The notes under the pieces are model-generated. The model made no database searches. It was not told the origin of the DNA and worked only from the letters and a program-made list of their open reading frames with translations. This document shows, in pieces, positions 37,676-64,000 of a stretch of 64,000 nucleotides of DNA. The stretch is from Ilyonectria destructans (taxonomy: Eukaryota; Ascomycota; Sordariomycetes; Hypocreales; Nectriaceae). Location: NCBI GenBank assembly GCA_020740775.1, contig JAHEWK010000046.1, positions 124,001-188,000 of the forward strand. The letters are read 5' to 3'. The translations under genes were made by a program, and so were the position numbers. Position 1 is the stretch's first letter; each line of letters starts with the position of its first letter.

Positions 37676-37677
37676 AA

Positions 37678-39532: not shown

Positions 39533-39539
39533 TAATATC

Positions 39540-40330: not shown

Positions 40331-43300
40331 CTTTAGAAGGTATTATATATAGATAAGGTTTTTAGCTGGCTTCTATTAGTTATTACTTTCTGAGTAGTTT
40401 TTCTATTTAATAAGATACTTAATTTTATTATTAACTTCTTATATCTTAAGAATCTTCTTAATTTTATATTTCTTAGGTTTTTTAACTTCTATTTTAAATT
40501 TATTATTAAACTTAGCTATAATTATACTTTCTGTACTCTTAAGGAGTAAGATATAGAAGATAGAGTAAAGTCTAACTTTTAGCAGTAAGTCTAACTAGTA
40601 GTTATTTTCTGAGACTTTTTTAAGAATTCTATAGAGGCTGATATATTTATAGTTCAGTTTTTTATTTTATTATTTTATTTTAATATTTTTTATAGTAAGA
40701 AGAACTATATCTCCCTCTTAAAAGAATAGTCTCTTTATCTGTTTTTTATTGTAATATTTTCTTATCTAATTTCTAATAAATTTAAGTTTAATCTTTATTT
40801 CTTTATATAGATTTTTTAGATTTTCTATTATAAGAATAGCTTTAGGGATAATTTTTCTATCTCTATCTATACAGTAAGTATTAAGGGTAAATTTAAAGTT
40901 AGTATATACTGAAGTAATCTTTATACTTTTATTTACTGCAGTATTATAGCTTAGCTATACAGTTAGAAGCTTCTTAACTCAGTTATTCTATTTATAGTTA
41001 ATATAGTATTAAAGGTATTATTTTAGTATTTAATTTATCTATTCTATCTATCTATTAACTTATACTTAATATACTATTATAAGTTAATAGTTCAGTTCTA
41101 AATAGTCTATTAGTACTTATTAAAACTTAGAAGTAAATAGAGGTTCTCTATTAGAGAGAATCTTTAAGAGTAGCCTATAAGTACTGATAATATATCTTAG
41201 GAAGATATAAGTAAACTGCTCTATATTTATTAATTCTTAATAGGGTATAAAATAGGAAAATTTTATAAGTCTATCTATAATAATAAGAATACTGTTATAT
41301 ATAACTCCAGTTATAGAGTCTTCTAATAAGGGTAATTTAGTAATAAAATCTATAGTAATAGAGTCCTAAGGTTACTTAGCAACTAGTAGGGGTTATAATT
41401 TTCTATATAATTTATAGTATTAAGCCTTAATTTTATTATAAAGTAGGTACTGCTTAGTAATAGCTTATACTACTGCTTTTATCTTAGGAAATTAGTATAT
41501 TATTCTAACTTACTTAAGGATTTTATTAACTTTCTAATATCTATATAGCGGAAGTTTATATACTTTCTATATAAGTTAGTACTATAGTTCTCTAGGAATT
41601 TATAGCTTATCTGTTTTTTTATCTAGAGGTAGCTTATTATTATATTATTAGATCCAGATATAGAGTTTATTATTATTTATAACGATATAGGTATTTCTCA
41701 GTATTTTCTTATTTTTATTTATATATACTGGGTATTTCTTAATTATATACTGGAGTATATTCTGTAGACTGTATATATTATAGATTTTAGCAACTAGCTA
41801 TTATAGTATATCTATACTTCTATTATAGAGTCTATCTTTATATAGTTCTTATACTATTTGGTACTAGTAGTAGTAAGAAATAATAATATATCTGCCTTAA
41901 TATCTTATTTCTTTAGTATATCTATAAGCTTAATTTATAAAGTCTTATATAGGTCTATTTCTATAGATTAGGTTTAGGTATTTAGGTTGTAGTTATATTC
42001 TTTATATACTTATAATATACTTCTACTTAAGGTATCCTTCAGTATTAAAATTAAGAATCTATTTATTTATTTTAAGCTTATTAGTATTAAAGTTATATTA
42101 TTAACTAATAGTATTAGCTTATCTATTTTCTGATTTCTTTCTATAGATAATTATATAGTTAAATTCTAAGAGATATTCAGTATATTACAGTTATTATCTG
42201 CTAAGTTCTTATATAGTTATAAAGTATAAGATATTCTTATAGTTTATATAGATTTTAATCTTATATTTACTTTCTAGAAGGTAGTATTAAAATTCCTTAA
42301 ATAAGTTAATAATTATAAGGAATTCTTTATTATAAATAGAGTAGTTAAGTTTAGTACTATATATTTTATAAGAGAAGAAAGCAACTAAATATAACAGTCT
42401 ATTATTATCCCTTTAGCTAATTTAAGCGCCTTATATAAAGTCTGATAAATCTATCTTAAGTTTAATTTCTTATTTAGGGTTAAAAGTAGCTAGTATAGAC
42501 TTACTTAAAATAAGATTTTTTATAGTATTAAATACTTTTTCTATAGTAGTATTCTATTTAAAGTTTACTTCTTTTTTAGTAAGTTCAGTAAGTAGTATAG
42601 TATAGCTGCTAAAGTCTTTAAGAAACCTTTAGTAGTAATTAGTAAATCTAAAGAATAATTATACTTCCTTAATATTTACTGGTCTTAGCTATTTACTAAC
42701 TGTAGCAATTTTCTTTAAATTTATTCTAATCTTATTATATAAGATAATATATTTAAGAAACTCTACTTTTAGAGTGTAGAAGTTACTCTTCTTTAGTTTA
42801 ATTAGTAGGTTTATATCCTAAAGTACTTATAGTATCTTATAGATATATTCTATATATTCTTCTTCTATATTAAAGAAGATTAGAATATTATCTAGATAGT
42901 ATATAATAAATATATTTAGATATTTATATAATATATTATTAATTATTTATTAAAATATAGCTAGTATATTTATAAATCTAAAGAGTATAATAAGATATTT
43001 ATAAAGTCCGAACTTAATTTAAAAGGCAGTTTTCTATTTATATTCTTTCTTAATATAGATAAGATTATATACTCCCTTTAGATTTAATACTGTAAATACC
43101 TTCTTACTGTAAAGTTAGTTCTTAAGCTCTATAATAAGAGGTAATAGAATTTAATCTTTAAGTATAATATTATTTAATTATCAGTAGTCTATAATAAGTT
43201 AGAATTTACTATTCTTTTTAGGAATAAATATAACTGGATATCCAGCTGATAACTTAAAGATCCTAATATATTCTTTCTGTAATATATCTTTAATATATTC

Positions 43301-46300
43301 TTTAAGTATATTAAGTTATATTTCGTTAAGATTAAATATTTTATAAAATATAGGTATTATTCTATCTTTTAGTATAATTTTATAGTTCTATTAACTGAAT
43401 TTAAGTAGTTCTATCTTAAGTTCTTCTATAAAGAGTTTTTTATAGATTTAGTATTATATTAATATACTCTTAAGTTATTCTTCTTTAGGTATTTTCTTAT
43501 AATTCTTAAGGTTTTTATTTATCTATATAAACTGTTATTAAAGATATCTAATTATTCTTTAGAGTTATATTTTCTTATCTTTCTGGTATTTATATTATAT
43601 TCCTTTTAGTAGTACTAAGATATCTATTATATCCTTATATAAATCCTCACTCTTACTATCTTTAGAAGTTAGAATTAAAGATTTTTTATCTTCTGAGTTG
43701 CTATTATTTTTACTAGAGAGTATATTATTATAATTAATATATATCTGGCCAGTTCTCTAATTAAATTATAGATTATATTCTATTAGCTATAGATACTTAA
43801 GAATAATATTATAATACTTTATTAGTATAATATTAAGGGTAACTTCTTAATTTTATCTATTAATAAATATCTTTAGGTAATTAACCTATTAAGTTATCTA
43901 TCTATTATTATAGTTAAAGTTATTATCTTTAAGGTTATATACTATATAGAGGTTCTTTTTATCTTTCTATAGTAGCTTTAGTCTATTAACTACTAATAGG
44001 TTAATATATATAGCTTTAGCTTTACTATCTACTAATATAGTAAGCTATACTCTCTTAACTTATACTTACAGTTTAAATATCTTTCTTTTTTTTACTGATT
44101 TTATTATATATAGAGCTTTTATTAGAGGTAGTTCTTTCTTATATATATTATCTATCTATTACTCCTCTATAGATAGTATATATTGTTTTTTATATAGTAA
44201 CTATCTTAGGAGTATTCTATCTTAAAGTATTCTCTATATCTATTTCTAACTTATTAATATTAGGCTTAGTCTGCTTAATTTATTCTAATTTAAATTGAAA
44301 AGTTAAATTCTTTATTATATATTTATCTAATATATATATTAATTTCTTATGCCTCTATACTGTACTTAGAGTACCCAGGCTTATTATAGGTTATTATATT
44401 TTATATTAAGTAGGACTGGATATTCTAAATGGGTTCTTTATTATTATATTTAGGGGTTATCCCTCTATATTCCCAATCTTCTATTTTACTCTTCTAGGCT
44501 TAATTAAGACTGCTTATTCTTTAGTAATTTAAGAAGTTATAATTCCAGTAAATTAAGAACTTAATATATTGGAATTTATTTCGACTTTTCCAGCTGTATT
44601 CTATACAGTCTGGTTTATTATATTATAGTACTCTTATAGTAATATACTTAAGTATATTCTCTTCCTTATATTTATACTATTCCCTTATCTTCTATTATTT
44701 ATATATATAGTATTCTTCAGTTTTACAGTCTTTAATAGTACTAATTAAGTTTATATATTCTAGGGGAAAAAAATCTCCTTTATCCTCCAGTTATATAATA
44801 CCTACTTCTATATACTATTTAGTAACTTAAAAGTACTTAAGTTTATTCTATAAATATAGATTCTAAATAGATATATTATTAGTTTATATAGAAAAATAGT
44901 TATAGTAGATTTTTTCTTCTTTATATATTGGGCATTTATAGATAATATATAATACCTATAAGATCTTCTTATAGTTAGGGTATATTACTGCTATCCTTAA
45001 GTTATTATCTTTTTATTCTTTTAGAGTTATATAGTATAGATTGTAATCTAGCTGTATATTATAGGTGTAGATATAGATAGAGTTAGTTACAGTAGGTACT
45101 TATTATTTATTTATAAGGTTATTATATATTTCTATTGGGTTTTTCTATATTTAGTTCCTGAGGTTATTATATTTTCAGTATTCTTTATAGCTGAGTCTAG
45201 AGTCTTATTTATCCTCTATTTCTAAGTATTTATTAGCAGGAGCAATAATATCCTAGTCGGCTACTATAAGTTCTAACTTTCTTACCAGTCTTATTTCTCA
45301 TTCTGTATATACCCAGAGGGTACCTTCTTCCCTAGTGTAGAAGTATCAGTAGAGCTTATCCTTCTCTTTTTATTTCTAAGACATCTTCACTCTATATTCC
45401 CTGTCAGTTAGGGGTGGTATAATAGATTTAGGTTATCTGTCTGAAATTAAATTTCCTTATCGTACTATAGCTATAGTGTGTAATATACTATTAAGGGTAT
45501 TTAAGGTAGTATTATAGCTTTTTGGGACTGGTTTCCAGATAGGCTTATTTTACTGGTGATTTTATCTTTTCTTTTTCAGTCTGATATTCTATTTGTTCTT
45601 TCTCTTAGTATCTATTTTTCTATACTATACAGCTTATTTTTATACCTTCTCTACTGTATTATCTTTAATTGTTTTAGTAGTTCTTTAGATATATAATTTA
45701 AGAATAAGTATATTATTAAGATATTCCTCTTCCCAATTTACATTATTCTTATAGACTCTATTAAACCCTTCTTTATAACCACTCCAAATTATAGTAATAA
45801 TCTTAAATTAAATAGCAATTTAAGGTTTATTATTATTATTAGAGTACTAATAGTTAGTAAATTGTATATACTTACCTTCTAGTATAGGCTTATACTTTTA
45901 GTTGGATTTTAAGGTGCAGTATTTACTTTTAAAGTAATCTATCTTTTTACAGTTTTAATATTTAACCTTTAAATAGTCTTTTTATATAGCTTCTAGTTCT
46001 ATAGGTTTTAGTGTTATTCTATAGGAGGTATTACTTTAGTGTTTCTTTCTGTAGTTAGAATGGTTTTTTTTGTTTTTCCAGGACAGTATATAGAGGGTAC
46101 CTTCTAATTTCTCAGTTTTCTTCTCTTATTATTTTTTAAATTATCTGTTATTAATTTCTACTGTAAGTTATATAAGTTTATTATAGGTAGTAAGTTTATC
46201 TTTTCTAATTATAATATCCTTAACTTTAGACTTAAGTTTTTAGTAGAAGCTTACTATATAGGCCTCTTCTCCCTAATTAAATTATAATATAGAATTACAG

Positions 46301-47100
46301 TATTTAGCAGTATATATAGATATAGCTTCTACTTATTAGAGTTTTTAAATTTATTATTCTGCAATATATTTCTTATCTTAGAATCCACAGAATACTTTAA
46401 GTTTCTATTTAAAGGTTTTATAATTTCTATAGATAGCTTTAGTTTCTTTTTTTCTCTAGTTATAGATATTATTAATATAGTTTTTTATAATAGGTTTAAA
46501 CTATTATAGGGCTTTATCTTTAAGGAATCCTATTCTATATTAAACTCTAGCTTTATCTGTAATAAATTACATTAAATAGTATATCTAGTAGGCTTAAAGC
46601 TATATAAGGAATCCTTAGAGTTTAGTAGCTAAGCTGTTATAGGGGTCAGGCTGTTATAGTTTAAGGATTTCTCCAGTATTCTTACCTCTAGCTGTATTAG
46701 AAGTAAGGTTTTCAATATAGTCTTTATATATATTTTTCTAACTGATAAATTTCTATACCAGCTTATTATTATATTCCAGTAGGTTTTTATACTGTATATT
46801 CAGAAGGTTAATTTACTTCTATTTATTAGCTATACTATTCTTAGATACAGTTAGAAGTTTATTAAGTTATATTAATAGATCTTTATTAAACTATTTAAGC
46901 TTTCTGAAGTTCTTTATAGTAACTTCTTTATTATTATTTTCTTTAATAAGATTAAGGTCTCTATTATTATTAATAAGTAGATTATAAGTTCAATCTTAAG
47001 AAGAGGCCAAACTCCTAAAGGGTATTATAGGTGCTATAATAACAGATTTAAGGTATTACTTAAGTTAATATAGTAATACACTGAATAAGAGCTATTAATA

Positions 47101-47495
47101 TATAACAGTCAGATTTAACCTAAGAGTATAGAGTAGGTCTAAGGTATAGTATTTATAATTAAGTAGATTAGAATATTATAGTAAGTAATATAGATTACAG
47201 TCTGGTAATAGTAAAATAGTAGATTTAATATAACTAAGTATATTAATAGCTGGTAAGGCTATCTCTATAAAAGTGCTAAATAAAGGTATCTATATACTAG
47301 ATATATTATATAGTCTCAGTAGTACCTTTATAAGACTCAGTAATAAAACTGTCAGTCTTATTAATAAGAGTTATAAGTAGGATATTAATACTGATTTATT
47401 ATGTATAAGCCTTTAGGCTAATAAAAAAGATAAAAAGTAGGTACTATTATAGTTCTACTAGTTGTAACTGCCTGATCTTAACCTGAGCTATAATA
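47101..47495 (-). repeat. Type A LTR inside E3
   Basis: 395 bp, TATAACAG..CTATAATA, closely matching the E2 LTRs rather than the E3 LTRs. It is the 5' LTR of a second element nested in E3's pol; its partner 3' LTR is absent. Confidence 0.9.
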
Positions 47496-50400
47496 TAAAT
47501 TTAGGTAGTTCTATTTTAAGTTCTTCTATAAAGAGCTTTTTATAGATATAGTATTATACTGATATATTCTTAAGTTATTTTTCTTTAGGTATTTTCTTAT
47601 ATTCCTTAAGGTTTTTATTTATCTATATAAACTGTTATTAAAGGTATCTAATTATTCTTTAGAGTTATATCTTTTTATCTTTTTAGTACTTATATTATAT
47701 TCCTTTTAGTAGTATTAAGGTATCTATTATATCCTTATATAGATTCTTACTCTTACTGTCTTTAGAAGTTAGAATTAGAGATCTCTTATTTTCTAAGTTG
47801 CTATTATCTTTACTAAAGAGTATATTATTATAATCGATATATATCTAGCTAGTTCTCTAGTTAAATTATAGATTGTATTTTATCAGCTATAGATACTTAA
47901 GAATAATATTATAGTACCTTATTAGTATAATATTAAGAGTAACTTCTTAATTTTATCTATTAATAAATATCTTTAGGTAATTAACCTATTAAGTTATCTA
48001 TTTATTATTATATTTAAAGTTATTACCTTTAAGGTTATATACTATATAAGAGTTCTTTTTATCTTTCTATAGTAGCTTCAGCCTATTAATTACTGCTAGA
48101 TTGATATATATAGCTTCAGCCCTACTATCTATTAATATAGTAAGCTATACTCTCTTAACTTATACTTACAGTTTAAATATCTTTCTTTTCTTTACTAATT
48201 CTATTATATATAGAGCTTTTATTAGAGGTAATTCTTTCTTATATATATTACCTGCTTATTACTCTTCTATAGGTAGTATTTATTATTTTTTATATAGTAG
48301 CTATCTGCAGAATATTCTATCTTAAAGTAATTTCTATATCTATTTCTAACTTATTAATATTAAGCTTAATCTACTTAATTAAGTTCAGTTTAAGTTAAAA
48401 AGTTAAATTCTTTATTATATATTTATTAGATATATATATTAATTTCCTATATCTCTATACTATACTTAGGGTATTTAGGCTTATTATAAGTTATTATATT
48501 TCATACTGAATAAAATTAGATATTCTAAATAGATTCTTTATTATTATATTTAGAGTTTATCCCTCTATATTTCTAATTTTCTATTTTACTCTTTTAGACT
48601 TAATTAAGACTGCTTATTTCTTAGTAATTTAAGAAGTTATAATTTCAGTAAATTAAGAACTTAATATATTGGAATTTATTTTAAGTTTTCCAGCTATATT
48701 CTATACAGTCTAATTTATTATATCTTAGTACTCTTATAGTAATATATTTAAGAATATCTTCTTCTTTATATTTATACTATTCTTTTATCTTCTATTATTT
48801 ATATATATAGTATTCTTTAGTTTTATAGTCTTTAATAGTACTATTTAAGTTTATATATTCTAATAGAAAAAGATCTTCTTTATTCTCTAGTTATATAATA
48901 TTTATTTCTATATACTATTTAGTAACTTAAAAGTATTTAAGCTTATTCTATAAGTATAGATTTTAAATAGATATATTATTAGTTTATATAGAAAAATAGT
49001 TATAGTAGATTTTTTCTTCTTTATATATTAGGCACTTATAGACAATATATAAAGCCTATAAGATTTCCTTATAGTTAGGGTGTATTACTACTATCCTAAG
49101 GTTATTATCTTCTTATTTCTTTAGGATTATATAGTATAAGTTACAGCCTAATTATATATTATAGATATAGATATAGATAGATTTAGTTACAGTAGGTATT
49201 TATTATTTATTTATAAGGTTATTATATATCTCTATAGAGTTTTTCTATATCTGGTTTCTAAGGTTATTATACCTTCAGTATTCTTTATAGCTAGATTTAA
49301 AATTTTATTTATTTTCTATTTCTAAGTATTTATTAGTGGGGGTAATAATATTCTAGTTAGCTACTATAAGTTCTAGCTTCCTTATTAATTTTATTTCTTA
49401 TTCTATATATACCCAGGGGGTACCTTCTTCCTTAGTATAGAAGTATCAGTAGAGCTTATTTCTTTCTTCTTATTTCTTAAATATCTTTACTCCTTATTCT
49501 CTATTTATTAGGAGTAGTATAGTAGGTCTGAGTTATCTATCTGAAATTATATCTCCTCTTTATACTATAGCTATAATATAGGAAGTTCTATTATTAGAGT
49601 CTGCTAAGATGCTGGTATTATTCCAAGTGGGAATTAATCTCTAGATATTTTTATTTTTATTCTAGTTATATCTCTTTTTCTTATTCAGTTTGAGTTATCT
49701 TTCCACTTTAGTCTTAAAGTCTATTTTTCAGTATTAAACTGCTCTCTTTTATATTTTCTTATTAGTATTATCTTTAATATACCTTACTGCTCTTTAGGCC
49801 TAAGGTTTAAGAATTAATATATTATTAAGGCACTTAGCTTTTCAGTTTCCGCTATTCTTATAGACTCTATTAAACTCTCTATTATAACTACTTTAAGTTA
49901 TAGTAATAGTTTTAAATTAAATAGCAGTTTGAGGTTTATTATTATTATTAGAGTGCTAGTAGTTAGTAAATTATATATACTTACCTTCTGGTATAAACTT
50001 ATACTTTTAGTTGGATTTTAAGATATAATACTTACTTTTAAAGTAATCTATCTTTCTGCAGTTTTAGTATTTAACTTTTAAATAATCCTTCTATATAGCT
50101 TTTAGTTCTATAGGTTCTAGGGCTATTCTATAGAAGGTATTACCTTAATATTTCTTACTGTAGTTAGAATAGTATTTCTTATTCTTTTAACCCTCTGGGT
50201 TTTTTTATTATTTCTCTATATATCTTTTAAATAGTTAGTTATTAATAGTAATATAGAGGTATATATAGATATTAAATCCAGTTAGTAGATTAAGAATCTT
50301 ATAGATTTTATTCTTAACTTTATTCTTTAACTTTTAGTAGAAGCTATCTATTATATTTTTATTATTTCAGTTAAGCTTTATAGATAGATATTAATATTCT

Positions 50401-51283
50401 ATAAGGTATTTTAATACTGTCTTTATCTACTTTAACTTTTAGATTTATATAAGTACTTTATATTTCTTATTCTATTCTCTATATATATTTATAAGCAGTT
50501 ATTTATATATATTAAACTATTAAATAGTAGGGTAGTTTCTAATTTATATTAGTTAGATAAGTTCTCTATAAAGTCTCTCAGTATTAGGCCTATTCCTTAT
50601 TAGGCTTTATCTTTTAGTAGTTCTATAGTATATTAAACTTTTAGTAATTTATTGCTAAATATAATTAGATAGTATATATAGTAGGACTTAAGCTTAATAA
50701 GATACTCTTTTAGCTTCTTAGGTATACTATTAAACTTCCTCAGCTGGAGTAATTTAATAGTTTTATTAATATTATAAGATCTTAAGATACTTAGAGTAAT
50801 AGTAAAACTGTTAAATTATTCTATATACTAAGCTTATTCAGTATAAGTATAGAGTTACTTATTAGTAAGGTTAATAATATATCCTTTTAGTGCTATAATA
50901 GTTACCAGCAGTATTAAGTTTAGAGCAGCTATTTAAATTATACTGAGATTCTATATTTTATTATATAGAGCTTGGAACTTTTCATTATTTTATATCTTAT
51001 TAGTTTTAGCTATATTAGTTAAAGTATCTACTTTTTAATAAAGTTAAAGATTTTTTTTATAAAGCTTTTTAAGCTTTTTACTTATTTCTTCTTTATTTAA
51101 GAAGGATTTCTTATTACCTATAGTATTATTACTATTATTATCCTTTAGAGTCTTTAGGTGTATAATATTTTTTCCCTTAGAGAAAGTAGAGATACTAGTT
51201 AATAAAGTTACTAGAGCTATAATAACTGAATTAGGGTATTACTTAAGTCGATATAGTAATATACTAAATAAAAGCTATTAATA

Positions 51284-51664
51284 TATAATAGTTAGATTTA
51301 ACCTAGGGGTATAGAGTAGGTCTAGAGTATAGTATTTATAATTAAGTAAATTAGGATATTAAAGTAAGTAATATAGATTACAGTCTGATAATAGTAGAAT
51401 AGTAGATTTAATATAACTAAGTATATTAATAGCTGGTAAGGCTATCTCTATAAAAGTACTAAATAAATATACTTATATACTGTATATATTTATACAGGCT
51501 TACTGGGTAAGAGTAAGTCCGATCTTATAGCTTATTATAGGAAAGTAAGCTGGGCACTCTAGCTTACTTATATAGATAAGTCTCGGGATCAGTATTATAT
51601 GAAAAAGTGGGTACATTATAGTTCTGCCGGTTGTAACCGCCTAGTTCTAACCCGGGCTGTAACA
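51284..51664 (-). repeat. E3 5' LTR (type B)
   Basis: 381 bp; the right-hand part is little mutated and keeps the intact terminus CTGTAACA. Confidence 0.9.
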
Positions 51665-51669
51665 CCTTA

Positions 51670-52660
51670 GAATAAAAGTCTTTCTTACTAAAGAAAAACT
51701 TATATCTGCTATTTCTATAGCAAATAATGAAAAATCTGAAGAAGCTCTTATAAATATTCGTCTTTTACTATTCTGTACTAAACTATAACTCTTGATCTTA
51801 TAAGGTGACTCTTATACAGTAACTCCCCTACTCAATCACTTTCTTTATCCCATATACTCCTCTATATATCTTTCAGTCTGCCTTCTAGTAGTCTTTACTA
51901 CAGTATACTACAGCCTTATACTGCTCGCACTTCCTAATCCCTTCTATCTTTCTGCATACCGTATAAACTATAGCTTCCACTTAAGCCTCTGCCCCTACTC
52001 CAATTTCAAGTATCTCCTTCTGGATAGCTTATTGCATCTAGCTTTCATATTTATCTTTCCCATACACATTACTGATAAGAACCCTAATATAGGGATCACC
52101 CTCTTTATAAAGAAAGAATATTAATGTCTGCAGAATGGTTATAATAGGCAATCTGCAAATTCTATAAAATAGATTGAATACTATATAATAAGCTGGTTTA
52201 TATTCTTTTAAAAAAGGCAGTACTGTATATTAAAAATAATAGATATATAAATTATCTTGCTGGGTATAGAATAGAGGCCTAATAAGACTCTTTGAAATCT
52301 TATAAGTAAAATTCAGACCTTTAGGGATATTATTATAAGAAAATTAAAACCGAACTGAATATATCGCTATATTCACAATAAGAGAGAGGACTATAGATAC
52401 TATATCTTCCTTATAATTAAATAAATTGACTATAATAGTTCTAATTGTAAGCTTTTAGGAGAATAAGTGCCAGTAATATAACTCCACCTAAGTTGCTATT
52501 AAGGTTTTCCTAATGTTTTGTAAAGAGCCTTAATACGTTTTATAGTCTTAATATACCAATTACACCTTACAGTCGAGCGTAAGATAACGTTACGATAATC
52601 AAGCTGCTGATCTTACTGCTTCATCCAAACTTTATATCAGCTTAAAATATCAGCTCAAAA
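51670..52660. other. AT-rich flank of the RIP block
   Basis: GC content rises gradually to the right. No LTR, ORF or repeat pair recognised; probably decayed element sequence. Confidence 0.4.
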
Positions 52661-53107
52661 TAACAAAATTTTGGTCAAGTTGCGTTGGCCGATTTTCGTC
52701 TTTAACTTCGTTCCTCAAGGCTCTTTTTGGGCAGACCGCTTGCGGTTTGCGTCTCCTGTTCTCATTGGTCACAGACTTGACCGTGAAATCCCAAAATGGC
52801 TAGTACTGTGACCGCAAATTTCAAAAGGGTAGGTTTTGACGGCCCGACAGTTAGGCACAATACGACACATAGAATAACTGGTAGCCTGGTAGCGCAGAGC
52901 CGTTCATCTCGGCGAAGTCCATGAAGTGTAACAAGCAATGCCAAGCCCATAGAAAAATTTATTTCATCCATGGAACCTGTGGGTGCCTCTCGCTCTAGCC
53001 CTAATACTCCGACTTTAACTTCCTCAGACTCCTAATACCGGCCTTGACAACTCCGTTACCAGTATTATCATCCGGCATCATCCATGCAGGTACACCGGTC
53101 TATAGCA
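52661..53107. other. Intergenic, 3' of the CHAT gene
   Basis: Normal composition. A 69-codon minus-strand frame (52762-52971) with a hydrophobic segment exists, but nothing supports it as a gene. The last part overlaps copy A of the tandem duplication described below. Confidence 0.4.
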
Positions 53108-53214
53108 TTAGTCAACTCCCAGTGCTCCTTCTTCATCAAGGAGCCCGTTATCCATGCAGGTACACCAGTCAATCATGGCATTAGTCAACTCCCAGTGCTC
53201 CTTCTTCGTCAAGG
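53080..53214. repeat. Tandem duplication at the 3' end of the CHAT gene
   Basis: 53080-53141 and 53150-53214 are near-identical (atccatgcaggtacacc.., gcattagtcaactcccagtg, ctccttcttc.tcaagg), differing by a few substitutions and a 3-bp length change. Copy B encodes the ending KKEHWELTNAMIDWCTCMD; copy A is read in another frame and gives the last residues LLDEEGALGVD and the stop. Confidence 0.9.
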
Positions 53215-56200
53215 TGCCTAGTCCGAGCTGGTACCCCAGACACCAGCGAAAGAGATCCTTCTTTTGATCCGCTGTGAGACTATCAAAATCATGCAGCGGT
53301 TCAGAAAATGCCAGGACGCGGTTAAAAGCATCATGGTCGACCTGCCTCGCTGCCACCGCATCGGCTAACCAGACCGCACCCTGTTCTATTTCGGACGTGA
53401 ACCAGGCTTCCATAGTGAGTGTGTCTGGATGCGGCGCAAACAAGCTGGCCATGACTTTTTTTTTGAGGTCTTTGACTAAATCTCCGAGGCCGGCGGCACT
53501 CATAGCTGTCATCATTGTGCCTGAGTTGCCAAATGCTTTGAGCAGGAGCGGGCCCGCGGCGTCGAAGCGGCGGAGGCGGACGAGGCAAAGGGCGTAGCGG
53601 GAATAACGAATCGTGTTTCTTCCTCGGTCTTCCCGTCCCCAAAATCCAGCGGTCCTATCTTCAAGCAGAACCAGCCTCTCCATATATTCCGCTGCTGCAG
53701 CATCGCTGCCCAATTGCAGCGCGAAATCGATGAGCAGCCGGTAATATACTATCTGTGCGGGCTTGTCACCATTGGCTATCGAATCTGCTAGGCGCTCTAA
53801 CAGATGGCTCTTTGCGTCATGGACTCTGGAATCCTGCAGTAGAGCCTGCACAATCTCGACATCCGGAATGACACTAATGCAGCCGTGGTCCAGAAAAAAC
53901 GAGTTGTGAAACGTTTTTCGAGGGTCTTTGGACAGCTTCAGACTGGTGTCAGGCACGATCCGACCTAGTATTTCCTGCTGCCTCCTTTTCACCAATCTCT
54001 CGTGCGCGGGTGTGTTGGAGACTGATTTCAATTCTTCGGAAGTCTCCTTGAGCTGTTGGTTCCAAATGCGGAGCTCTGATTCCAATGGTGCAAGAGACTT
54101 TCCGAGGAGGACGAGGAGGCAGGAAATCTTCACTGGGGACCGAAGGTTGAGAGGCAACGTGTCATCCGCAATCAGCTTTTCCAGGAGGTCGGTAAGCAAG
54201 GCTTTCCCTTCGCCATAATAGCCCAGCAGTAGCAGCGTATGACCCTTGATGAATTCAGCCTGGCATTTGAGGCCATACACAGTAGTATCTGTCCTCACAT
54301 GCTCGTTGCTGGCATTGAACAAATTGAGCATCATGTCCGAGTACTTTCTGGCGGTTTGCGGGAAACTCTCGGCATAGTACATGCATAGGCTGTTCAAGAC
54401 ATGAAGCACATACTCCAGTCGCGGTAATTCAAGCTGTTCCACTTCTCCTCCCTCTGTAGTGCCAAATGTCTGCACGAACAGCTCGCAGCGTCTGATAATC
54501 AACTCTTTGTCGACATTCTCCAGCAGGCAAAAAGCGGCCAAACAGATCAAAACTCTATACGTAGCGTGTACCACCGAGTCGTTGGGCATGTTAATGCCCA
54601 GAAGCCCAATATCGACTGTCTTGATGAAATTAGTATTCTCTGCCGTAACGTCGTGCTTGAGTTGCCGCCATGCGGCGGGCGAATTCGACGACCATTCGTA
54701 TGTCCTCTCCTCGAAGTAACTATACACGGCCAACATGACTATTTGACTCAGAGCAAAGTCCGGCCATTCTTCACGTGGTTTCCTGTTGTGTTTTATGATG
54801 CGTGCCCTGATTACCCGCGTGATGAGTGGGTGAATCCTCCAGTAAGTGTATGAGCGTTGATTCACGGCCGGGTAGTCTTTGGTCGGATAGTCAGGATCCA
54901 CCTCAATCCACCCCGCAGGGAGGGCAACTAACAGAGCTTCAGAGATTCCTTTCGCAGTGGCACCATTGGCCAAGAAATGGCGGACAGCAGATCCAGGGTC
55001 GTCAATGATGTAGTCAAACCAGTCAAGACGAAAGCGCGTGGAAAAGAACGCCAGGCTCAGCAGTGCTACCTCAAGGTCCGGGTTTAAGCGAGCCAGCCTC
55101 TCATATGCAAACTCTGCTGTGCGCATTATCTGCATAGATGTCCAACAAGGACCGCGCCCCGTCGCTAAGCCGTAGAATAAAAATATCTCTGGGATTCTTT
55201 GAATGGCTTGCAGCTGTTCGGGAGAAGCTGCGCTTAACCTGAGATCCTGTAAGAGAAAATCTAATGCCGTCGGATTGCGCTCTAGGACGACAAGTTGATC
55301 TCGGAACTCGAACTTATGGTCGTCATGGGACACTGATGCCTGCAGTTGTGCGGGAAGCCTGTCTATGAGGAGCTCCCTGGCAAGAGCCAAAGGAAGGTCC
55401 CCAAGACGGTATCTTTGGCTGTCCAATAGCCCTAACCAGGGTTCCGTGGACCGCGAGACAATTAGAAGAATGCTCTTGGTCCCGGAAACCGCTTCCACCA
55501 GATTCAATAGCTGCGTTCTCTCCTCTTCGGACCACCTCACGCGTTCCGCGTGAGTTGCTTGAGTGACCGAATCCAGACTGTCGAGTACGATGAGATATCG
55601 CTGGTCCTTTATTGGTTCAAGCAAGTCTCCTCCAAGCTCAAAGGCATCCCTTTGTAATCGAAGACGAAGAGCGACGCGTTGGAGCATTTGTCGTACCGTA
55701 TTCTTGTCGTAGCCTGCGTCAGCATCAAGATAGAAGCTCTCTTGAACTAGCTGCGTTGCCTTCCACCACCAGCAAAGATGTCTCACAAATGCCGATTTAC
55801 CAACGCCAGCCACGCCATGGACTAGCATGACCGTCGGCCGTCGGAATTGCTGAGGTTGTTTGGCGCAGTGAGTCGACGGCGACAACAGTTGCGCTTCTAA
55901 CAGGAGAATATCGGCATCTCTGCCCTTAAGATCAGAGATGAATAGGCTGCTGTTGTCTAGAAAGGTGGAGCCAAGAGTGCTTCGCGCCCATTCAGCAATT
56001 CGTGATGCCATGCCGTACTCGGAGCGATCTTGCTCTTCGTCGTTCTGTTCCAGCATAGGTCGTCCACGCAGGAACGGTTTGTCGATGGAGGTCTTGCCTT
56101 TGGAGGAGTAGACAACAGGAACTATATAATCATCGATTTCAACGCTTGCGAGTCCTCCAAGCCTACGTCTATTCGTAGCCAGCACTCTTCTTGCTGCCGC

Positions 56201-57259
56201 CGCAGCAGCGATAAAGCTGCTTCCCTCGGCAAGTAGGTGCGAGTAGAACGTCTGGACAAACATCGCTGACGCTGCTGCAGTCAGGTCAAAGGACATTGCC
56301 ACTACTTGTTGGATGCCAGAACGGACAAGCATCTCGGCAAAGCTTGACAACGGGGGGCCAACCCTAGCGCTCTTGCAGGCGTTGGTGACGACCGTCGTGA
56401 TGCCGTGGGTGTGGAGACACTTGGCAACAGCTTCTGCACTTATGCGTACGGGCGATGGTTGACCTACGACTTTCCGGGGGTTGAACCGAAGATGCACTTG
56501 GCTATTTCAGATTTAGTCAAATCGCGAGATGTCAATTTGAATGACCGTAACTCACTGTCTAAACTCATCCCCATGGACGTCAAAGTGCACAAGGTCATAG
56601 TACCCTGGCCCATTCTTGGTAGTAACTTCTTCGAGATGGTTCACAAAAGCTTGCCAGCAGCCTGGGCGAACGATCACAACTTTCACTTGCGTTCCATTGT
56701 GTCGTCTTAACCTCTCCGCCAGGTCGATTAGAGGCCGCGAGAGTAAAGTGTAGGGCAGATCTTGGCTGACCCCGGGCCGCGAAGAGATCATCAGGATATT
56801 GTAAAACTGTCTCTTCGCCAGAATGTCTTGATTGGGGATATGCCCCCCATCGTATGCGTCGTGCACCCGCCGACATAGGACGGTATGACCGAGCAATTCA
56901 TCTTGCTCAATGACTTCCCAGTGGATTTTGTGGAACGTGGAGCTGCTACTGGCTGCTTCGACGATGAGAACAAGGCCGTCCCGACGAGCTTGCTGACTAG
57001 ATGGTCAGCGGCTGAGACGCAATCAGAACGTGATTTCAGAGGGTCATCTTACGCCGACTATTTCGTGCAGACGCAATTGATTGATTAGTGACTGCCGATA
57101 GCTGACCAGAGAGTTACGGACGCCGCTGGCTCGTTGGGTATCGAAAGGCTCGAGTTCCGAATGTCGCTCGACGAGCCAAGTCAAGGATTCTTCCTCTGTC
57201 ACCGTATACGGATCCGTCACTGCGCATGGTTCAGATCTCAACGACAACGGCAATGGCAT
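53108..57259 (-). CDS. CHAT protease - NTPase (NLR-like) protein
   Basis: Three exons: 57053-57259, 56556-56992, 53108-56501. Introns are 60 bp (GTAAGA..GTCAG) and 54 bp (GTGAGT, TGACTAA branch, AATAG). Spliced length 4038 nt, 1345 residues, all phases fit. Start is the in-frame ATG at 57259; an upstream out-of-frame ATG lies 7 bases earlier. A CHAT caspase-like protease domain covers about 75-345: YDLVHFDVHG with His209, and VVTNACKSAR with Cys257, the expected His/Cys pair, then GIQQVVAMSFDLTAAAS and FYSHLL. A KGRDADILLLEAQLL linker (about 407) leads to an NTPase with Walker A GVAGVGKS (444-451) and Walker B YLIVLDSLDS (517-526). The long helical C-terminus (about 800-1300) has TPR-like pairs but I cannot fix repeats. 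Likely a cytosolic sensor whose activation switches on the protease. Nearest gene on the same strand is gasdermin-like. Intact apart from the odd 3' duplication. Confidence 0.88.
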
Positions 57260-58436
57260 CGCACATACGGGTATGTATCTCCTTTGCCTCACCTAAGCAC
57301 ACCTGCACTTGCCATGACACATCTGAAAATGCGCTGATCTCCTTGATTGTAACCGTAATCATCATCATCGGCGTTTTTGGGTCACAATCCTGGCTAATAC
57401 CTCGAGAAACGTCGGTCAGGCATGCCGGAAGGCATGTTACTGTTATATCGTCTTGACCACCCAACCCAACCAACGGACCCGACAGCCTTACCACCAGCCC
57501 CTGAATGTACCAAGTACAAACCCGCACGAACAGGCAGGGGATTTGATTAACCTACCGGTCGAGAACGTTTCATTGCATGAGAAGCAGGCTCGGCAGTTGC
57601 TGGACCCGTCAGTATGCCTGCACGAACCTTGACTGAGCCCAGTGCACTACCGTCCGCCTCAACTGAAGCTGAACGCCAAAGCGGCAGGGGATTACCGCAA
57701 CTCAAGCCCAAAATAGCATAGGGGGTCAATGCGCAGAGTCAGCGCACGGCAAGTGTCTAATCACCGAATTGCAAGAACGGGGCGCCTAGGGTTCGCCAAC
57801 GAGGCAACAACGCCAATAATAGGCACTTACTAGGTCTAAGCAATCGGCCAGTAGCTGACCTAGCACTGCCTGCCGTTGCCTGCCGCTGCGGCCCCCGAGG
57901 AGAAGCACTGGACGAGAATGAAAGATACATACTTGGGCATCAGCCTTGCCGTGTTTGTGTCAAAGCCACCACGAGCTGTAGATTGATTTGTTGCCAATAG
58001 TTTTCGCCGTGGCTTGCAGGGATGCAGCAGGCCTGGCATCGGGTAATCCCCCGGTCCCCCCGTAACCTTCATACCGAACTTTCGCTCCCGTGATTCTGGC
58101 AGGTCGCGCCTGGAAGTGGTGGGGCTATTGTTCTCGCACCAGGCCTCCCGGAATCTTTCCCGTCCTTTCCTCTCTGTTCCTCCTCTGAAGCCGGGCTCCC
58201 ATACCCACAGTAACATCAAGCCAGCCGAATCCTACCGAGCTCGTGAGTGGATCTGCGATCCCTCTGCAGCCAAAGACGCAGGAAGGGCCTATGATCTGAC
58301 CGATGTCGTCCAACAGGCACAGGTCAGGTTGCTTAAAGATCCAAATGGCATAGAAACGGACTGAAGATTTAGGGCTATCAGGCAACATCTCAACAAGGAG
58401 AAGGCGGACGAGAGCCACGTTGATATCAAGACTGTA
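57260..58436. other. Upstream region of the CHAT gene
   Basis: About 1.2 kb without a recognisable gene. Open frames on both strands (up to 119 codons, 57860-58219 minus) have no familiar motifs and odd composition. Probably promoter and 5' leader of the minus-strand CHAT gene plus decayed sequence. Confidence 0.4.
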
Positions 58437-58736
58437 CGGAGGGCCATTTCAAAAGTCTTGTCCCAAGAAAAAGCAACGATTTCCAGTCAGCCAATCATAG
58501 CTAGCCTAGGTACATCAGATACTTCCTATTTCTCATATGCCCTAAGAAGCTACAGATTCTAGCACACCACCAACCGCTAAGTCTTGACCGGCAGCCGCTA
58601 ATACCCCTGGAGCTACAGCAGGCATAGCGGACGGCTTCAGTGCACTGCCTCAATTGCCATGTATCTCAAGTAGCTGACAGGGTATAGAGATGTGGCGTTG
58701 CTAGCTCTTGGACAAGACTTTTGAAATGGCCCTCCG
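58437..58736. mobile_element. 300-bp MITE flanked by TA
   Basis: Perfect 27-bp terminal inverted repeats, cggagggccatttcaaaagt-cttgtcc and its complement (58437-58463, 58710-58736), with TA on each side (58435-58436, 58737-58738). No coding capacity. TA target and TIR type point to a non-autonomous Tc1/mariner-like element. It sits between the CHAT gene and the gasdermin-like gene and shows no RIP decay. Confidence 0.88.
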
Positions 58737-58738
58737 TA

Positions 58739-59128
58739 GCAGAAAGCGAGTCTAGCCTCCAATACCTCGACGCTCGCGGGTGGGAGTAAGAGAACTCTAG
58801 CGTTAAATCGGTCAGCAAGGGTCATTCGGGGAGGTATTATTAGCCGTGTCATGCTTCATCCGGCATGAAGGTGCTAGATGGGAAGAATCCCGGCTCTAAC
58901 ATACCCGATACCGATAATTCGGTTGAGTCCACAAAGCCTCAGTCGTTAAGGTCGATTCGCCAAATGCACCTAATGTTAATATGCAGACGGAATCGGATAT
59001 ACTCGAGCAGAATCTATTGGCGTAATGCGAACGAAAGACAGCCGAGACGCTGGAAGCTAGAAACTTTGGCAAGGACGCAGAGTCTCAGCATAAACGTCTG
59101 GAAGCGTACCATGCATCACCTCGTGAAG
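58739..59128. other. Intergenic, 3' of the gasdermin-like gene
   Basis: No gene recognised. It would contain the 3' untranslated region, and a last small exon if the donor at 59171-59176 is used. Confidence 0.4.
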
Positions 59129-60058
59129 TTATTCGTCCTCACCGCAGGTACACAAAAGGGCGCCCGAGATACTCACGTCCTCACTTGACAGTGGGGCCTC
59201 CAACAAGCCGATATCTTCATCCACATCCCAATCCACATCCTCCTCAAGGACGCCTCCCTCCAGATCATGCACCTCGAGATCCAACCCGTTGTTGAACGTC
59301 CCACTTCCCCACTTCGTCTCTGCTATTTGCCCAAACTGCAGTTCCAGTGAACGACCTCCAAGCCCAAACAGTCCCGGTCGCTTCGCCTTGATGATGCGGT
59401 ACTCGACCTGAAAGATGCACTCGCCTTCGATAATGTGGCTGTTGCCCCAGTCCGCCAAGCGGTTGATGCTGGCTTCCATGCTGGGGTCGATTGCAGCAGC
59501 CCGAACGCCAACCCCGGTGGCCACGACTGCTCCAACTGGCACGCTTCCCTTGACGCCGACGTCGCTCTGGGCAGCGTCCATCACTTCGACACTTGCATCG
59601 ACGCAAGAGCGCGTCGCAACAGCCATATACACCTTTCCGCTATTTTCGGCGAGCAGATCCATCAGCTCGGCGCGCAGGTTCTGGTTGCGCACCAGCAGGG
59701 TGAAGAAATGGCGGTGGTTCGTAAGGCGTCGCGTTACCACGCGCGTTGTATCAATGCGCCACGTCTTTCGTTGACTGGCCCCGGCGCTGAAGGAGAAAAG
59801 CGATCGCAGGGCAGCTCGCGCCGAGTCTTCGCGGGCGGCAGACATGAATGCCTGAGCGGTCGTCCGGACCGTCTCCAACAGGCAGTCTCCATCTTCTTCG
59901 AGCAAGGTGGTAGTTAGCTCGGGATCTGCTGGGGCGTATTCATCTGTTGGATTGCCTGGGTCGGCGACGAAGCGGCCGAGGATGTCGGAGTGCGGGCCTG
60001 AGCTGGGCAGAGGGTCGTTGAGGAGGACGAAGGTTGGTCGTTTGCTGCGTCGGATCAT
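59129..60058 (-). CDS. Gasdermin-like pore-forming protein (putative)
   Basis: The open frame extends upstream, but the first ATG is at 60058 (aaaaaccATGATCCG), giving 309 residues. Order: basic start RRSKRPTFVLLNDPLP (3-18), GPHSDILGRFVADPGNP..EYAP (21-43), a helical part, FFTLLVRNQNLRAELMDLLA (118-137), then GKVYMAVATRSCVDASVEV (141-159), a Gly/Val-rich strand pair GSVPVGAVVATGVGVRA (171-187), ECIFQVEYRII (213-223), and a very acidic tail from about 266 (EEDVDWDVDEDIG). This layout, the K-V-Y-M-x-V..(K/R)-(S/T)-C block and the IFxVEYR block fit fungal gasdermin-like proteins (RCD-1/HET-Q1 group, about 250-300 residues), which form membrane pores after a short C-terminal piece is cut off. 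A GTGAGT donor at 59176-59171, right after SSED, may replace the last 15 residues by another exon. Assignment from memory of the family, not a search. Confidence 0.65.
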   Translation of the reverse strand: MIRRSKRPTFVLLNDPLPSSGPHSDILGRFVADPGNPTDEYAPADPELTTTLLEEDGDCLLETVRTTAQAFMSAAREDSARAALRSLFSFSAGASQRKTWRIDTTRVVTRRLTNHRHFFTLLVRNQNLRAELMDLLAENSGKVYMAVATRSCVDASVEVMDAAQSDVGVKGSVPVGAVVATGVGVRAAAIDPSMEASINRLADWGNSHIIEGECIFQVEYRIIKAKRPGLFGLGGRSLELQFGQIAETKWGSGTFNNGLDLEVHDLEGGVLEEDVDWDVDEDIGLLEAPLSSEDVSISGALLCTCGEDE

Positions 60059-60586: not shown

Positions 60587-63500
60587 GCCTTAGTCTGTAA
60601 GACTCACGGCTATACCGTCGCCGACCTAAAGAGCCACTTACACTGAGAACACTCCAACCTCAACCGGCTAGCCTATCGGGCCCTCCTGACGCACTATGGG
60701 GGCTACAACCTCGCTGGGCCAAGCTGGCAGCAGCCCGGAGCGGCCGAGAGGCAGCAGCTGCCGCCGAGGGAGCCTATAGCCCCTATTGCCGGGCTGCCGA
60801 TCCGCTACGGCTTCAGCTGCCGATAGTGCCCCGGCTTCCTTACTATCAGCTGGAAGCTATACAAAGGGCACTGCAGCTAGGTCCATAAAGCACAAAACAG
60901 CCAGGCCAGAGACAGCCTCTAATTCGGCGTTGAGGTCCAGACCTTCTTTATCAGGCCACAGCAGAAGTAGCAATACTTCCGGGTAGCAGTTACTGCTGCA
61001 GCAGCTAAGGCGGCAGCAACTAATAAGGAAGACGACAAGGAAGACAATAAGGAAAAGGCAGCCGCTATGGCAATAGTAGCGGCAGCAGCTATATACCAAG
61101 AAGATATAGAGGCCAGAAGGGTTAGAAGGAGGCAGCAGGCTTAACTAGCAGTAAGTATCCAGCTGCAGTGGGACTACAAGCAGGGCCAGCAGCAGAAAAG
61201 GCAGCTCCAGATGCTCGAAGACGGTATGCATAAGCATAAAATTACCAACTGACTGCAGCATACAGGCTAGATAGATTACTTCAGCAGCTGAGACCTGCGC
61301 CCTATCTACCTGGCCAGCTGCATACTGCAGCCCAAGGATGAGCCAGGCCTTAAGCTACTCGTAAAGGCCCTTAACAGCATCTTCTTCCGCAGCTGCATTG
61401 CAGGCCTGCCGGAGATACCGCTCATCGGCCGCCTCTTCCTTACCAGCCCCTATCCTAAAGACTCCTACAGCCAGCCATTTGGGCCCTTGCAGGAAAAGGC
61501 CAGTATGGACCGATACCTAGGCTACAGCAAGCACTTCCTCTGCTATTACATGAGGGTCCTGCCTCTGGGTGCCGACAACCTCATCAAGCAGCATGCCTTC
61601 TCCTTTACGCCAGTACAGTAAGGCCGGCTTGAAGCACTCTAGAGCCAGCTGCAGAGGGCGGCAGCAGCGGCGGAGAAGCCCAGCAGAAGCAGCAGAAAAG
61701 GAGAAGAAGAGAAGGAGGAAGAGAAAGAGGAAGATAGAAGCAGCAGCCTCGAAGGGGAGGTCCTGCAGGTCCTAGCCAGCTTCTGGATATAGCGTCTGCC
61801 CTTTGACCCCTTTGCGAGCCTGCTATGGCACTTCGTCGCCGTCCTAGGCATTAACAGCGAGACGGGCCAGCTGCAGCCGGCCCACCACTTTACCGGCATC
61901 CTCGCCGGCCTTATCTACACGGCCCGCGCAGTCGTAGCCGAGGCGGCTATGCCCAGTTAGAATCGGGCGGCGATGGCTGACCTGCCCGAGCAGCTAGCAG
62001 CAATCCGGAAGACCTGGCTGTACAAGTCCAGCTATACGCCGATAGGCTACATCCTCAACCTCCTGCTCTATAGAAAGAAGATCGCATTTGAGACTGGCAG
62101 CCAGCTGGCTGTAGTATGAAATAGAGACGGCATGCTACTCTACTTTTAAGGTCAGCCTCTGGCTATAGAGACAATCCGGCAGCTAATTACAAGTATAACG
62201 GCCAATACAGAAGACCTCCTCTAGGATGGGCTGCTCTTCCGGCCTTATAAGGTAGAGGCAGGGTTATTAGGCTCAGACTCTAAGAGTCTGAGGCCTCTTA
62301 AGCAAGAAGGCTGCTTTCTTATCCCTCTTACTACTATTCAAGATAACTTAATGCAGACTCAGTAAGGCCAGTCCTTCCTCTATACTAACAGCCTACTCAG
62401 CAAGGAAAAGAAGATACTGCAGAACCTGATTGCCGGGCCTCTAAAGAAGCAGTTTCTCAACAGCCGGAATAAGTAGAAATGGCCCTGGGTCCAGCAGTAT
62501 CTGCGGCAGGTTAAGAGGTTCCAGAAGCTGCTCTTACTTCTAGTCTACCTCACAAATCACCCCCTCTAAGGCCCGGAAATTACCGGCCTGCAGCTTATTA
62601 ACAGCATTAATAGAGACTACAGCCTCTTCATTATTAACAGTAAGGTTATCCTTATCAGCCAATACCACAAATCCCTCGCCCACTTCAATAGCCCTAAGGT
62701 GATCCCTTAGATGCTGCCAGGCCGGATAGAGCAGCTAATAGTAATATATATACTTTATATCCAACCCTTTACCAACTGCCTCCAGGGCAGCTGCTAGGCC
62801 CTCTACGATAAGGTCTACCTGCCGAGCGATTTTATCTGGTATCAGCCAGAGAGCTCTAGTACGCCTTAGGATAGCAGCCAGCTCTCCCGGGCCCTTACTA
62901 AATGGAGCCAGCACTACGCCGGCCAGAGGATTACCCTCCAGCAGTAGCGGCATATAGCTATTGCCATCAGCAGACAGTATACACAAGCAAGAGGGGCCCA
63001 GAGGGCAAATTTCAATAAAGCCGGCAAGGCTGAGGCCAAGGAAGAGGAGGCTAAGAGCTATAAAGAGGTGGAGGACCTTATAGCTGCTCATACGAGCCGC
63101 ACAGCAGCCGGCTACAGCGTGACAATTAATATTCTGAAGCAGCTAACCTCTAAGTCTCTTAAGGTCTTTAGCCAGACTAGCCAGCGCTGGCATCACTTCC
63201 TCGGCTGCAGCAGCAGCAGCAGCGGCAGCACTGCCGCTGGAGTTAAAGCTGAGATTGCAGAAGCTGCTGAAGGGCTAGAAGGGTCAGCAGCAAAGGAGGC
63301 AGCCTTACTACTGCTGGAGGCTGGGCTTAAGGAGGAGAAGAAGAAGAAGAGGAGGAGGAGGCTTACGGCCGGCAGCAAGCTGCTATTGAAGGCAGAGAAG
63401 AGGCAGCAGGTAAGCAGCTGGCCTATTGCCCTCAAGCAGCTTCAGGCCAGCAATAGCAGCAGCAGCAGCAACAGCCCAGCTATACACAACCGCCTCCTCC

Positions 63501-64000
63501 ACCGGGCTCTACAGCAGGCTCTGCGAAATGAAGATACTGACTTTCGCTCGGCCGAGCAGAAGGAAGCCATCCAGCGAGCCGCAGCCAAGCAGACGCCGCT
63601 AGTAGCAATCCTTCCGACTGGCGCCAGCAAGAGCCTGGTCTTTATAGTCCCGGCCCTTCTGATCGGCGCCGGCATGACGATTGTCGTCGTGCCTTTCCGA
63701 GCGCTCAAGGCACAGCTAGTTAGCTGCTGCCGAGAGGCAGGCTTAACCTGCAGCGCCTGGCCTGAAGCGTAGGACCTATAGCCTACTGTTACGATCATCT
63801 CGGCCGAGGCCGCCATAAGCGAGACCTTCCTACAGTGGGCTGCCGGGCTGACTGTGAGCAACCGGCTCGACCGTATTGTTATCGATGAATGCCACCTGAC
63901 CTTTACGGCGGCGCAGACCTATCGAGAGAGGCTGCGGCGGCTCACGCTGCTGCAAGGCCTCTGCTGCCCTTTAGTCTTCCTTACGGCCATGCTGCCCCAG
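60587..64000 (+). pseudogene. Telomere-linked RecQ-type helicase, stopped; partial
   Basis: A single plus-strand frame runs from 60587 to the window end without a detected frameshift but with many TAG, TGA and TAA codons. The N-terminus LVCKTHGYTVADLKSHLH..H has the Cys/His zinc-finger pattern of OrsD/DUF3505 proteins, repeated in CR.CPGFL..H and ending VEVQTFFI (about 60927-60950). A long central part contains FNSPKVIP and WHHFLG. The helicase starts at 63480: DFRSAEQKEAIQRAAAKQTP, motif I VAILPTGASKS (63601-63633, GASKS for GxGKS), Ia VVVPFRALKAQL, II DECH (63883-63894) and III LTAM near the end. Such proteins lie next to telomeres in many fungi. The stops sit where Gln (CAG) or Trp would be expected. 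GC-rich, with CAG/GCA-rich runs (63208-63235). Last 705-nt open stretch 63068-63772. Continues beyond the window. Confidence 0.82.

Follow-up and report, generated by a model that had tools for sequence, protein, structure and literature searches.

The closest described systems are clusters of a fungal gasdermin gene with the gene of a CHAT protease. As reported in a review (PMC10197012), about 80% of fungal gasdermin genes adjoin a protease gene and 19% adjoin a CHAT gene, and fungi have dozens of NLR or NLR-like proteins that bear a CHAT domain. NLRs with an N-terminal CHAT domain are reported to adjoin gasdermin genes (PMC9815663). That fungal gasdermins pair with CHAT proteases, among which are NLRs, is already published, and the gain of the present analysis is therefore one added, well-defined case. 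In Podospora anserina, the protease-controlled gasdermin gene of the HET-Q1/HET-Q2 system lies beside its protease gene, and HET-Q2 is an S8 serine protease (PMC10197012). In Aspergillus fumigatus, hetB encodes a CHAT protein of 1,327 residues whose expression there causes incompatibility, although the involvement of a gasdermin is a suggestion of that paper (PMC11138114). In bacterial gasdermin operons (Johnson et al. 2022, via PMC9612521), a protease and a gasdermin are encoded side by side; the proteases are caspase-like or trypsin-like, and NACHT-type proteins also occur (PMC9612521).

The window analyzed here is a stretch of 64,000 nucleotides of the Ilyonectria destructans genome (contig JAHEWK010000046.1, positions 124,001 to 188,000). 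As listed in Table 1, it carries the gene of a CHAT-NACHT protein, a putative sensor protease, and a 309-codon ORF described as gasdermin-like. The pair resembles the published gasdermin and CHAT clusters (Clave et al. 2022, via PMC10197012, PMC12881547, and PMC9815663) in gene spacing (less than 10 kb), in the CHAT domain as the N-terminal module of an NLR-like protein, and in a short C-terminal tail that is the likely inhibitory part. Nothing fundamental differs, although the distance between RCD-1 and the family of the window ORF is too great for any direct match to be significant, and the tail of this ORF is strongly acidic. The preliminary description likened the pair to HET-Q1. The likeness of a gasdermin-like gene beside a protease gene holds, with protease control being predicted here, but the comparison needs one change because HET-Q2 is of the S8 type while the window pair has a CHAT protease with a NACHT domain. 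The bacterial operons differ in their bacterial origin, and the window ORF matches no PADLOC model. A literature search for Ilyonectria with gasdermin gave papers unrelated by title.

Table 1. Features of the locus (window coordinates).
Feature	Position	Strand	Details
CHAT-NACHT sensor protease gene	53108..57259	-	1345 residues, 3 exons, spliced model
Sensor exon 1	57053..57259	-	residues 1-69; spliced model
Sensor intron 1	57052-56993	-	GTAAGA..CAG
Sensor exon 2	56556..56992	-	residues 70-215, ends in split codon; holds His209
Sensor intron 2	56555-56502	-	GTGAGT..TAG
Sensor exon 3	53108..56501	-	residues 215-1345; holds Cys257, NACHT, helical C-terminal half
CHAT domain match	56162..56605	-	residues 199-328; PF12770; intron 2 inside span
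His209 codon of CHAT dyad	56573-56575	-	exon 2
Cys257 codon of CHAT dyad	56375-56377	-	exon 3
NACHT NTPase match	55394..55831	-	residues 439-584; PF05729
Walker A GVAGVGKS	55793-55816	-	inside NACHT match
LIVLDSLDS	55568-55594	-	inside NACHT match
C-terminal region, candidate sensor solenoid	53111..54600	-	predicted almost all helical; approximate boundaries
MITE-like insertion between the two genes	58435..58738	.	304 bp; perfect 29-bp terminal inverted repeats starting TACGGAGGG
Gasdermin-like gene	59129..60058	-	309 codons, no intron, intact ORF; ATG at 60058, stop 59131-59129

The sensor protease and its orthologue

After removal of the two introns, the sensor gene encodes exactly 1345 residues, and its product is 100% identical to the deposited protein EDB80DRAFT_360879 of I. 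destructans. The preliminary description had claimed an intact fusion of a CHAT domain with an NTPase, and the spliced model bears this out; the N-terminal CHAT domain scores 35.4 bits against a cut-off of 24, and the NACHT domain scores 40.5 bits against a cut-off of 26.7. The motifs are HFDVHG (His209), TNACKSA (Cys257), GVAGVGKS (at 444), and LIVLDSLDS (at 518). An alignment of 11 rows was made from the sensor and 10 of its 22 other homologues, leaving out P0005, a deposited model without His209 and Cys257. Both catalytic residues are invariant in all 11 rows, as are the NACHT residues G444, G449, K450, and D522. No Pfam match to repeats of the TPR, ANK, or WD40 type was found in the C-terminal half. 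The AlphaFold model of exon 3 is mostly helical (mean pLDDT 55.5, with 552 of 1130 residues below 50), and its top Foldseek match is 6mfv_A, a STAND protein with a TPR sensor, at a low TM-score.

Both proteins have orthologues in Dactylonectria estremocensis. The 309-residue protein is 89% identical over its whole length to B0J13DRAFT_60334, and the sensor shows 78% identity to its orthologue across 80% of the protein. The two genes probably lie on one contig, since the contigs that carry them are both 1,530,580 long. The deposited sensor model has 1092 residues and begins opposite residue 272; it therefore lacks His209 and Cys257, which may be due to gene loss or to an annotation error.

Recurrence of the pairing in the genome

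Seven clear members of the family of the window ORF exist in this genome (the window ORF, C5, C8, C13, C29, C4, and C74). Six of them, including the window ORF, have a CHAT match 164-2,964 bp away, the distance being 2.5 kb for the window ORF. The binomial chance that at least five of the other seven members tested (the window excluded and a more distant relative, C7, included) lie within 3.5 kb of a CHAT match is 9e-11. C13 and C29 stem from a recent duplication that included their CHAT partners (96% and 98% identity), so that the six CHAT pairs correspond to about five independent ones. These observations support the view that the pair is a recurrent module, and the clustering with a protease gene, as claimed earlier, occurs within 3 kb in six of the seven cases. 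The five other partners carry the CHAT domain at the C-terminus, and four have at least a weak TPR match. A mirror-tree comparison of the gasdermin-like proteins with their CHAT partners gave a Mantel r of 0.89 (4 of 720 permutations were as high), which is given no weight because the C13/C29 duplicate and the outlying window pair account for it.

Might the two genes of the window be chance neighbours or relics with no common function? The gap between them holds the MITE-like insertion, and the D. estremocensis sensor model is without its catalytic part, as such a view would have it. It is nevertheless highly improbable, since the pairing recurs far more often than chance would allow, which already contradicts it. 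Moreover, both genes are intact and lie in a GC-rich island that does not show the RIP signature of the AT-rich blocks, and both orthologues are kept in another genus.

C74 is the clear member that has no CHAT match nearby. Its neighbours are a possible aspartyl protease and a trypsin-like protease, the former possibly fused to the latter, and the trypsin-like gene is the single match in the genome. No fungal gasdermin paired with such proteases appears by title among the literature matches listed, and the word trypsin is absent from the searched text of the reviews PMC10197012 and PMC12881547. The C7 family (six copies) has no CHAT match near any copy. C7 itself adjoins abhydrolase-like (a weak match), NB-ARC, and TPR genes, with no protease match there. 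S8 proteases were also considered as partners of the window family and rejected, since no S8 match lies within 40 kb of the eight members tested. Among the five additional C7-family copies, one (on C22) has an S8 match at 9.5 kb.

The neighbours of C74 and C7 speak for another explanation, in which the window ORF is a gasdermin that is not switched on by the neighbouring CHAT protease but by allelic mixing like RCD-1, or by another protease. RCD-1 reportedly acts through two paired allelic forms and is not cleaved (PMC12881547). This explanation is unlikely, given that a CHAT match lies beside six of the seven clear members and that C13 and C29 were duplicated along with their CHAT partners.

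Possible relationship of the 309-residue protein to gasdermins

The 309-residue ORF lies upstream of the sensor gene. The two genes are on the same strand and 1,869 bp apart, in agreement with the 1.9 kb noted previously. Residues 1-225 form the conserved part of the protein, and residues 226-309 form an 84-residue tail with a net charge of -16, whose acidity had been correctly described; the final 50 residues include 18 D/E and no K/R. Such an acidic tail is not shared by the whole family (net tail charge 0 in C8 and -4 in C5).

The label gasdermin-like found weak support. Homologue searches with the window ORF gave three proteins, and those with the alignment A2 gave four. Among 177,635 PDB sequences, RCD-1-2 of Neurospora crassa (8jyz_B; RCD-1 entries 8JYY and 8JYZ) was the top sequence with two of the four family profiles, at E 0.23 for A4 and E 0.17 for A6, and the match is colinear over 51-57 residues. 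The profiles A2 and A5 did not give the RCD-1 match, A5 thus losing what A4 and A6 had given. Three paralogues searched one by one against the PDB gave no gasdermin match. No gasdermin model was found in Pfam and NCBIfam with nine rows of A4, which gave weak matches to unrelated families, and no PADLOC model matched any of six proteins of the family. The AlphaFold2 model of the protein, built with four sequences in the alignment, had a mean pLDDT of 30.4 and was unusable. The sequence similarity to RCD-1-2 weakly supports a gasdermin identity, and this label is the only item of the preliminary description for which the searches gave no significant direct match.

Genomic context provides a stronger indication: as described above, six of the seven clear members have a CHAT match nearby. 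As a control for its logic, a 57-residue stretch of RCD-1-2 was searched against the genome and matched four other places (E 4e-5, 0.03, 0.26, and 0.64). One of these is significant by itself and three are not, but all four have an S8 protease match no more than 3.1 kb away. In the search with C8, the next match below the family, although its E value is 1.04, also has an S8 protease match near it (1.4 kb), like the RCD-1-like places. This link, together with the first rank of RCD-1-2 in two profile searches and its colinearity, argues against the explanation that the 309-residue protein is a non-gasdermin substrate or effector of CHAT proteases, freed by cleavage of the acidic tail. That explanation would fit the missing gasdermin models, the unusable structure model, and the modest E values obtained with two of the four profiles, and it is unlikely, being slightly less probable than a gasdermin activated by other means.

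A predicted cell-death switch and its protease class

I consider it likely, with a probability of about 0.78, that the pair is a fungal cell-death switch, in which the CHAT-NACHT sensor protease is predicted to cut the gasdermin-like protein into a membrane-pore former. The helical C-terminal half of the sensor would detect a trigger, upon which the NACHT domain would oligomerise. The CHAT domain may then turn active and remove the acidic tail of the 309-residue protein, whose released 225-residue part would assemble into pores in the plasma membrane, so that the cell dies. A possible occasion for such killing is the fusion with an incompatible strain. This would be a contracted, inflammasome-like pathway in which the receptor and the caspase-like enzyme are one protein. 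If the pair works in this way, it represents a compact one-receptor version of the route from inflammasome to caspase to gasdermin, in which a single chain is both sensor and protease. The fungus has seven clear related gasdermin-like genes.

A more speculative idea, which I regard as doubtful, is that each fungal gasdermin lineage is tied to a protease class. The RCD-1-like lineage would keep S8 and the window lineage CHAT, while the receptor would be exchanged within the latter: the CHAT domain precedes NACHT in the window protein and is C-terminal, mostly behind TPRs, in the five others, and the partner at C74 would be the possible fusion of an aspartyl protease to a trypsin-like protease. 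If so, gasdermin and protease would evolve as lock and key, and cleavage sites would follow the protease class. Since CHAT-paired and S8-paired places exist in one genome, the specificity of activation is directly testable by partner swaps.

Sensor gene and the adjoining 309-residue ORF

The window corresponds to bases 124001-188000 of contig C41 (190,183 bases). The sensor gene encodes a protein that shares 100% identity with EDB80DRAFT_360879 of Ilyonectria destructans, and the three-exon spliced model agrees exactly with the preliminary description, in which a 1345-residue sensor with His209 and Cys257 had been read from the DNA. It was found that H205, F206, D207, His209, G210, N255, Cys257, and S259 are invariant in an 11-row alignment of this sensor and 10 of 22 other homologues, drawn from fungi, a cyanobacterium, and entries with no named organism. 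The deposited sensor of Dactylonectria estremocensis was omitted from the alignment; the first residue of its model corresponds to residue 272, and neither catalytic residue is present, which may reflect either a short gene model or a real loss. This orthologue has 78% identity to the window's sensor over 80% of the latter, and the gasdermin-like orthologue of the same species has 309 residues and 89% identity, both lying on contigs of equal size (1,530,580). In a predicted model, the C-terminal half of the sensor is mostly helical (mean pLDDT 55.5; 552 of 1130 residues below 50), and the top Foldseek match is the STAND protein 6mfv_A, which has a TPR sensor, followed by plant resistosomes, with low TM-scores. 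The stop codon of the sensor gene falls inside a 73 bp tandem duplication at its 3′ end (window 53080-53218), and the protein terminus of the D. estremocensis orthologue, LLDEGALGVD, is nearly identical to the sensor's end there.

Coordinates of the features in the window and in the rest of the genome
Feature	Location	Strand	Remarks
Sensor gene, three exons	57259-57053, 56992-56556, 56501-53108	minus	1345 residues encoded
CHAT domain	sensor residues 199-328		above Pfam cut-off
NACHT domain	sensor residues 439-584		above Pfam cut-off
309-residue ORF	60058-59129	minus, as sensor gene	1,869 bp upstream of sensor gene
MITE-like element	58435-58738		304 bp, between sensor gene and ORF; perfect 29-bp terminal inverted repeats
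RCD-1-2-like place	C1:1197567		significant alone
RCD-1-2-like place	C12:4713292		not significant alone
RCD-1-2-like place	C74:1096100		not significant alone
RCD-1-2-like place	C4:1890361		not significant alone
Five C7-family copies	C16 (two), C22, C9, C24

The element between the two genes was regarded as a MITE-like insertion because of its perfect inverted repeats and its near-full-size genome matches (17 of 85 search rows cover at least 298 of the 304 bases, its own copy counted). This insertion makes the gap wider.

The preliminary description had named a CHAT protease and a gasdermin-like gene. The profile check confirmed the former. None of the gasdermin models of Pfam, NCBIfam, and PADLOC matches the 309-residue ORF. 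AlphaFold2 with four sequences only gave an unusable structure (pLDDT 30). Against 177,635 PDB sequences, Neurospora RCD-1-2 (8jyz_B) ranked first with the family profiles A4 (9 rows; E = 0.23) and A6 (8 rows; E = 0.17) over a common stretch of 51-57 residues; it was absent from the results of the other two of the four family profiles (A2, A5), and three paralogues used as single-sequence queries returned no gasdermin. Since these direct tests are weak, the case for a putative gasdermin is a consistent but sub-threshold RCD-1-2 match together with the genomic context, the latter being the strong part of the evidence.

Pairing with CHAT genes in the genome

I found at least six further clear relatives of the ORF (E no higher than 0.001 for one or more queries from the family) in the same genome, on contigs C5, C8, C13, C29, C4, and C74. 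Among the matches listed, a CHAT match lies 164 to 2,964 bp from six of the seven clear family members, the window's included. The 71.7 Mb genome has 48 CHAT matches, of which some belong to the same gene. By chance, five or more of the seven other members tested (the distant C7 relative included) would lie within 3.5 kb of one with a probability of 9e-11. The C13 and C29 loci are 96% identical in the gasdermin parts and 98% in the CHAT parts and represent a recent duplication of the entire pair, which leaves about five independent pairs. Only the window's sensor has CHAT ahead of NACHT among the six partners. In the other five the CHAT domain is C-terminal, with TPR clear for C8, C13, and C29, below cut-off for C4, and none for C5.

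The C7 relative is more distant (E = 0.0135; 34.6 bits against the family profile), and its protein has at least five closer copies elsewhere in the genome (46-51% identity). None of the 48 CHAT matches lies near C7 or these copies, and the CHAT-linked share over all of the at least 13 places is 6 of 13. All these counts are lower bounds, since the genome searches score best candidates only. The C7 relative (L046:45-935) lies 1.2 kb from a gene set with abhydrolase-like (below cut-off), NB-ARC, and TPR matches (L046:2146-5581).

On C74, the paralogue (L023:287-1297) has a very acidic tail, and 2.7 kb downstream of it is an ORF for a pepsin-like aspartyl protease (PF00026, 3e-52), the proteases spanning L023:4004-7642. 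Splicing could continue this ORF in frame into trypsin-like/S64-like ORFs (TNHHVL; GDSGSW; PF08192 above cut-off); the fused gene model is unsure because the last join requires a GTAAAG donor. It is possible that a double protease replaces CHAT here. The trypsin-like gene has a single match in the genome.

RCD-1-like genes and S8 proteases

As a control query, the 57-residue RCD-1-2 stretch from the profile match was searched against the genome. It matches at least four places with E values of 4e-5 (significant alone), 0.03, 0.26, and 0.64 (none of these three significant alone), and an S8 protease match lies 0.9-3.1 kb from all four (chance about 8e-10). The next match below the family for the C8 paralogue, C67:925201 (E = 1.04), has an S8 match 1.4 kb away. 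These places are likely HET-Q-type clusters. The C4 member has two sub-threshold matches besides C7, one on a contig without an S8 match and the other on the C22 copy of the C7 family, 9.7 kb from an S8 match. Among the six C7-family places, one (C22) has an S8 match at 9.5 kb.

Since S8 proteases lie by the RCD-1-like places and CHAT by the window's family, the genome appears to hold two pairings. They correspond to the two classes given for fungi in a review, in which S8 accounts for about 63% and CHAT for 19% within 10 kb of a gasdermin gene (PMC10197012). Thus, the finding is real and the kind of pairing is already known from that review, whose source is Clave et al. 2022. Two points go slightly beyond what is known: within one genome, two gasdermin families appear to be divided according to the class of their protease partners, and the C74 member adjoins an aspartyl and a trypsin-like protease.

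Possible mechanism and surroundings

Both genes of the pair are intact, the key residues of the protease and NTPase domains are in place, the 309-residue protein has an acidic tail, and the pairing recurs. Judging from the low-confidence model and its Foldseek matches, the helical C-terminal half of the sensor would detect something, and NACHT might then oligomerise. The CHAT domain, once activated, may cut the acidic tail off the 309-residue protein, and the released part could form pores. A review attributes the activation of a Podospora gasdermin to a CHAT protease with TPRs (PMC12881547). For at least one fungal CHAT protein, the 1,327-residue hetB protein of Aspergillus fumigatus, experiments have shown a link to incompatibility (PMC11138114).

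The gene pair lies within a GC-rich island without RIP signature. AT-rich blocks at window 9000-26000 and 37000-52000 have a GC of 0.23 and the RIP signature (TA/AT ~1.5; (CA+TG)/(AC+GT) ~0.4). A HET-domain ORF (PF06985, 3e-18; 29651-31066, minus strand) is a further allorecognition-type gene. The ORF at 1793-2299 matches the C-terminal model of single-strand DNA deaminase toxin A (PF24120; 41.7 bits, cut-off 27), and the one at 63068-63772, near the contig end, matches the start of a DEAD helicase (PF00270; 26.7 bits, cut-off 26).
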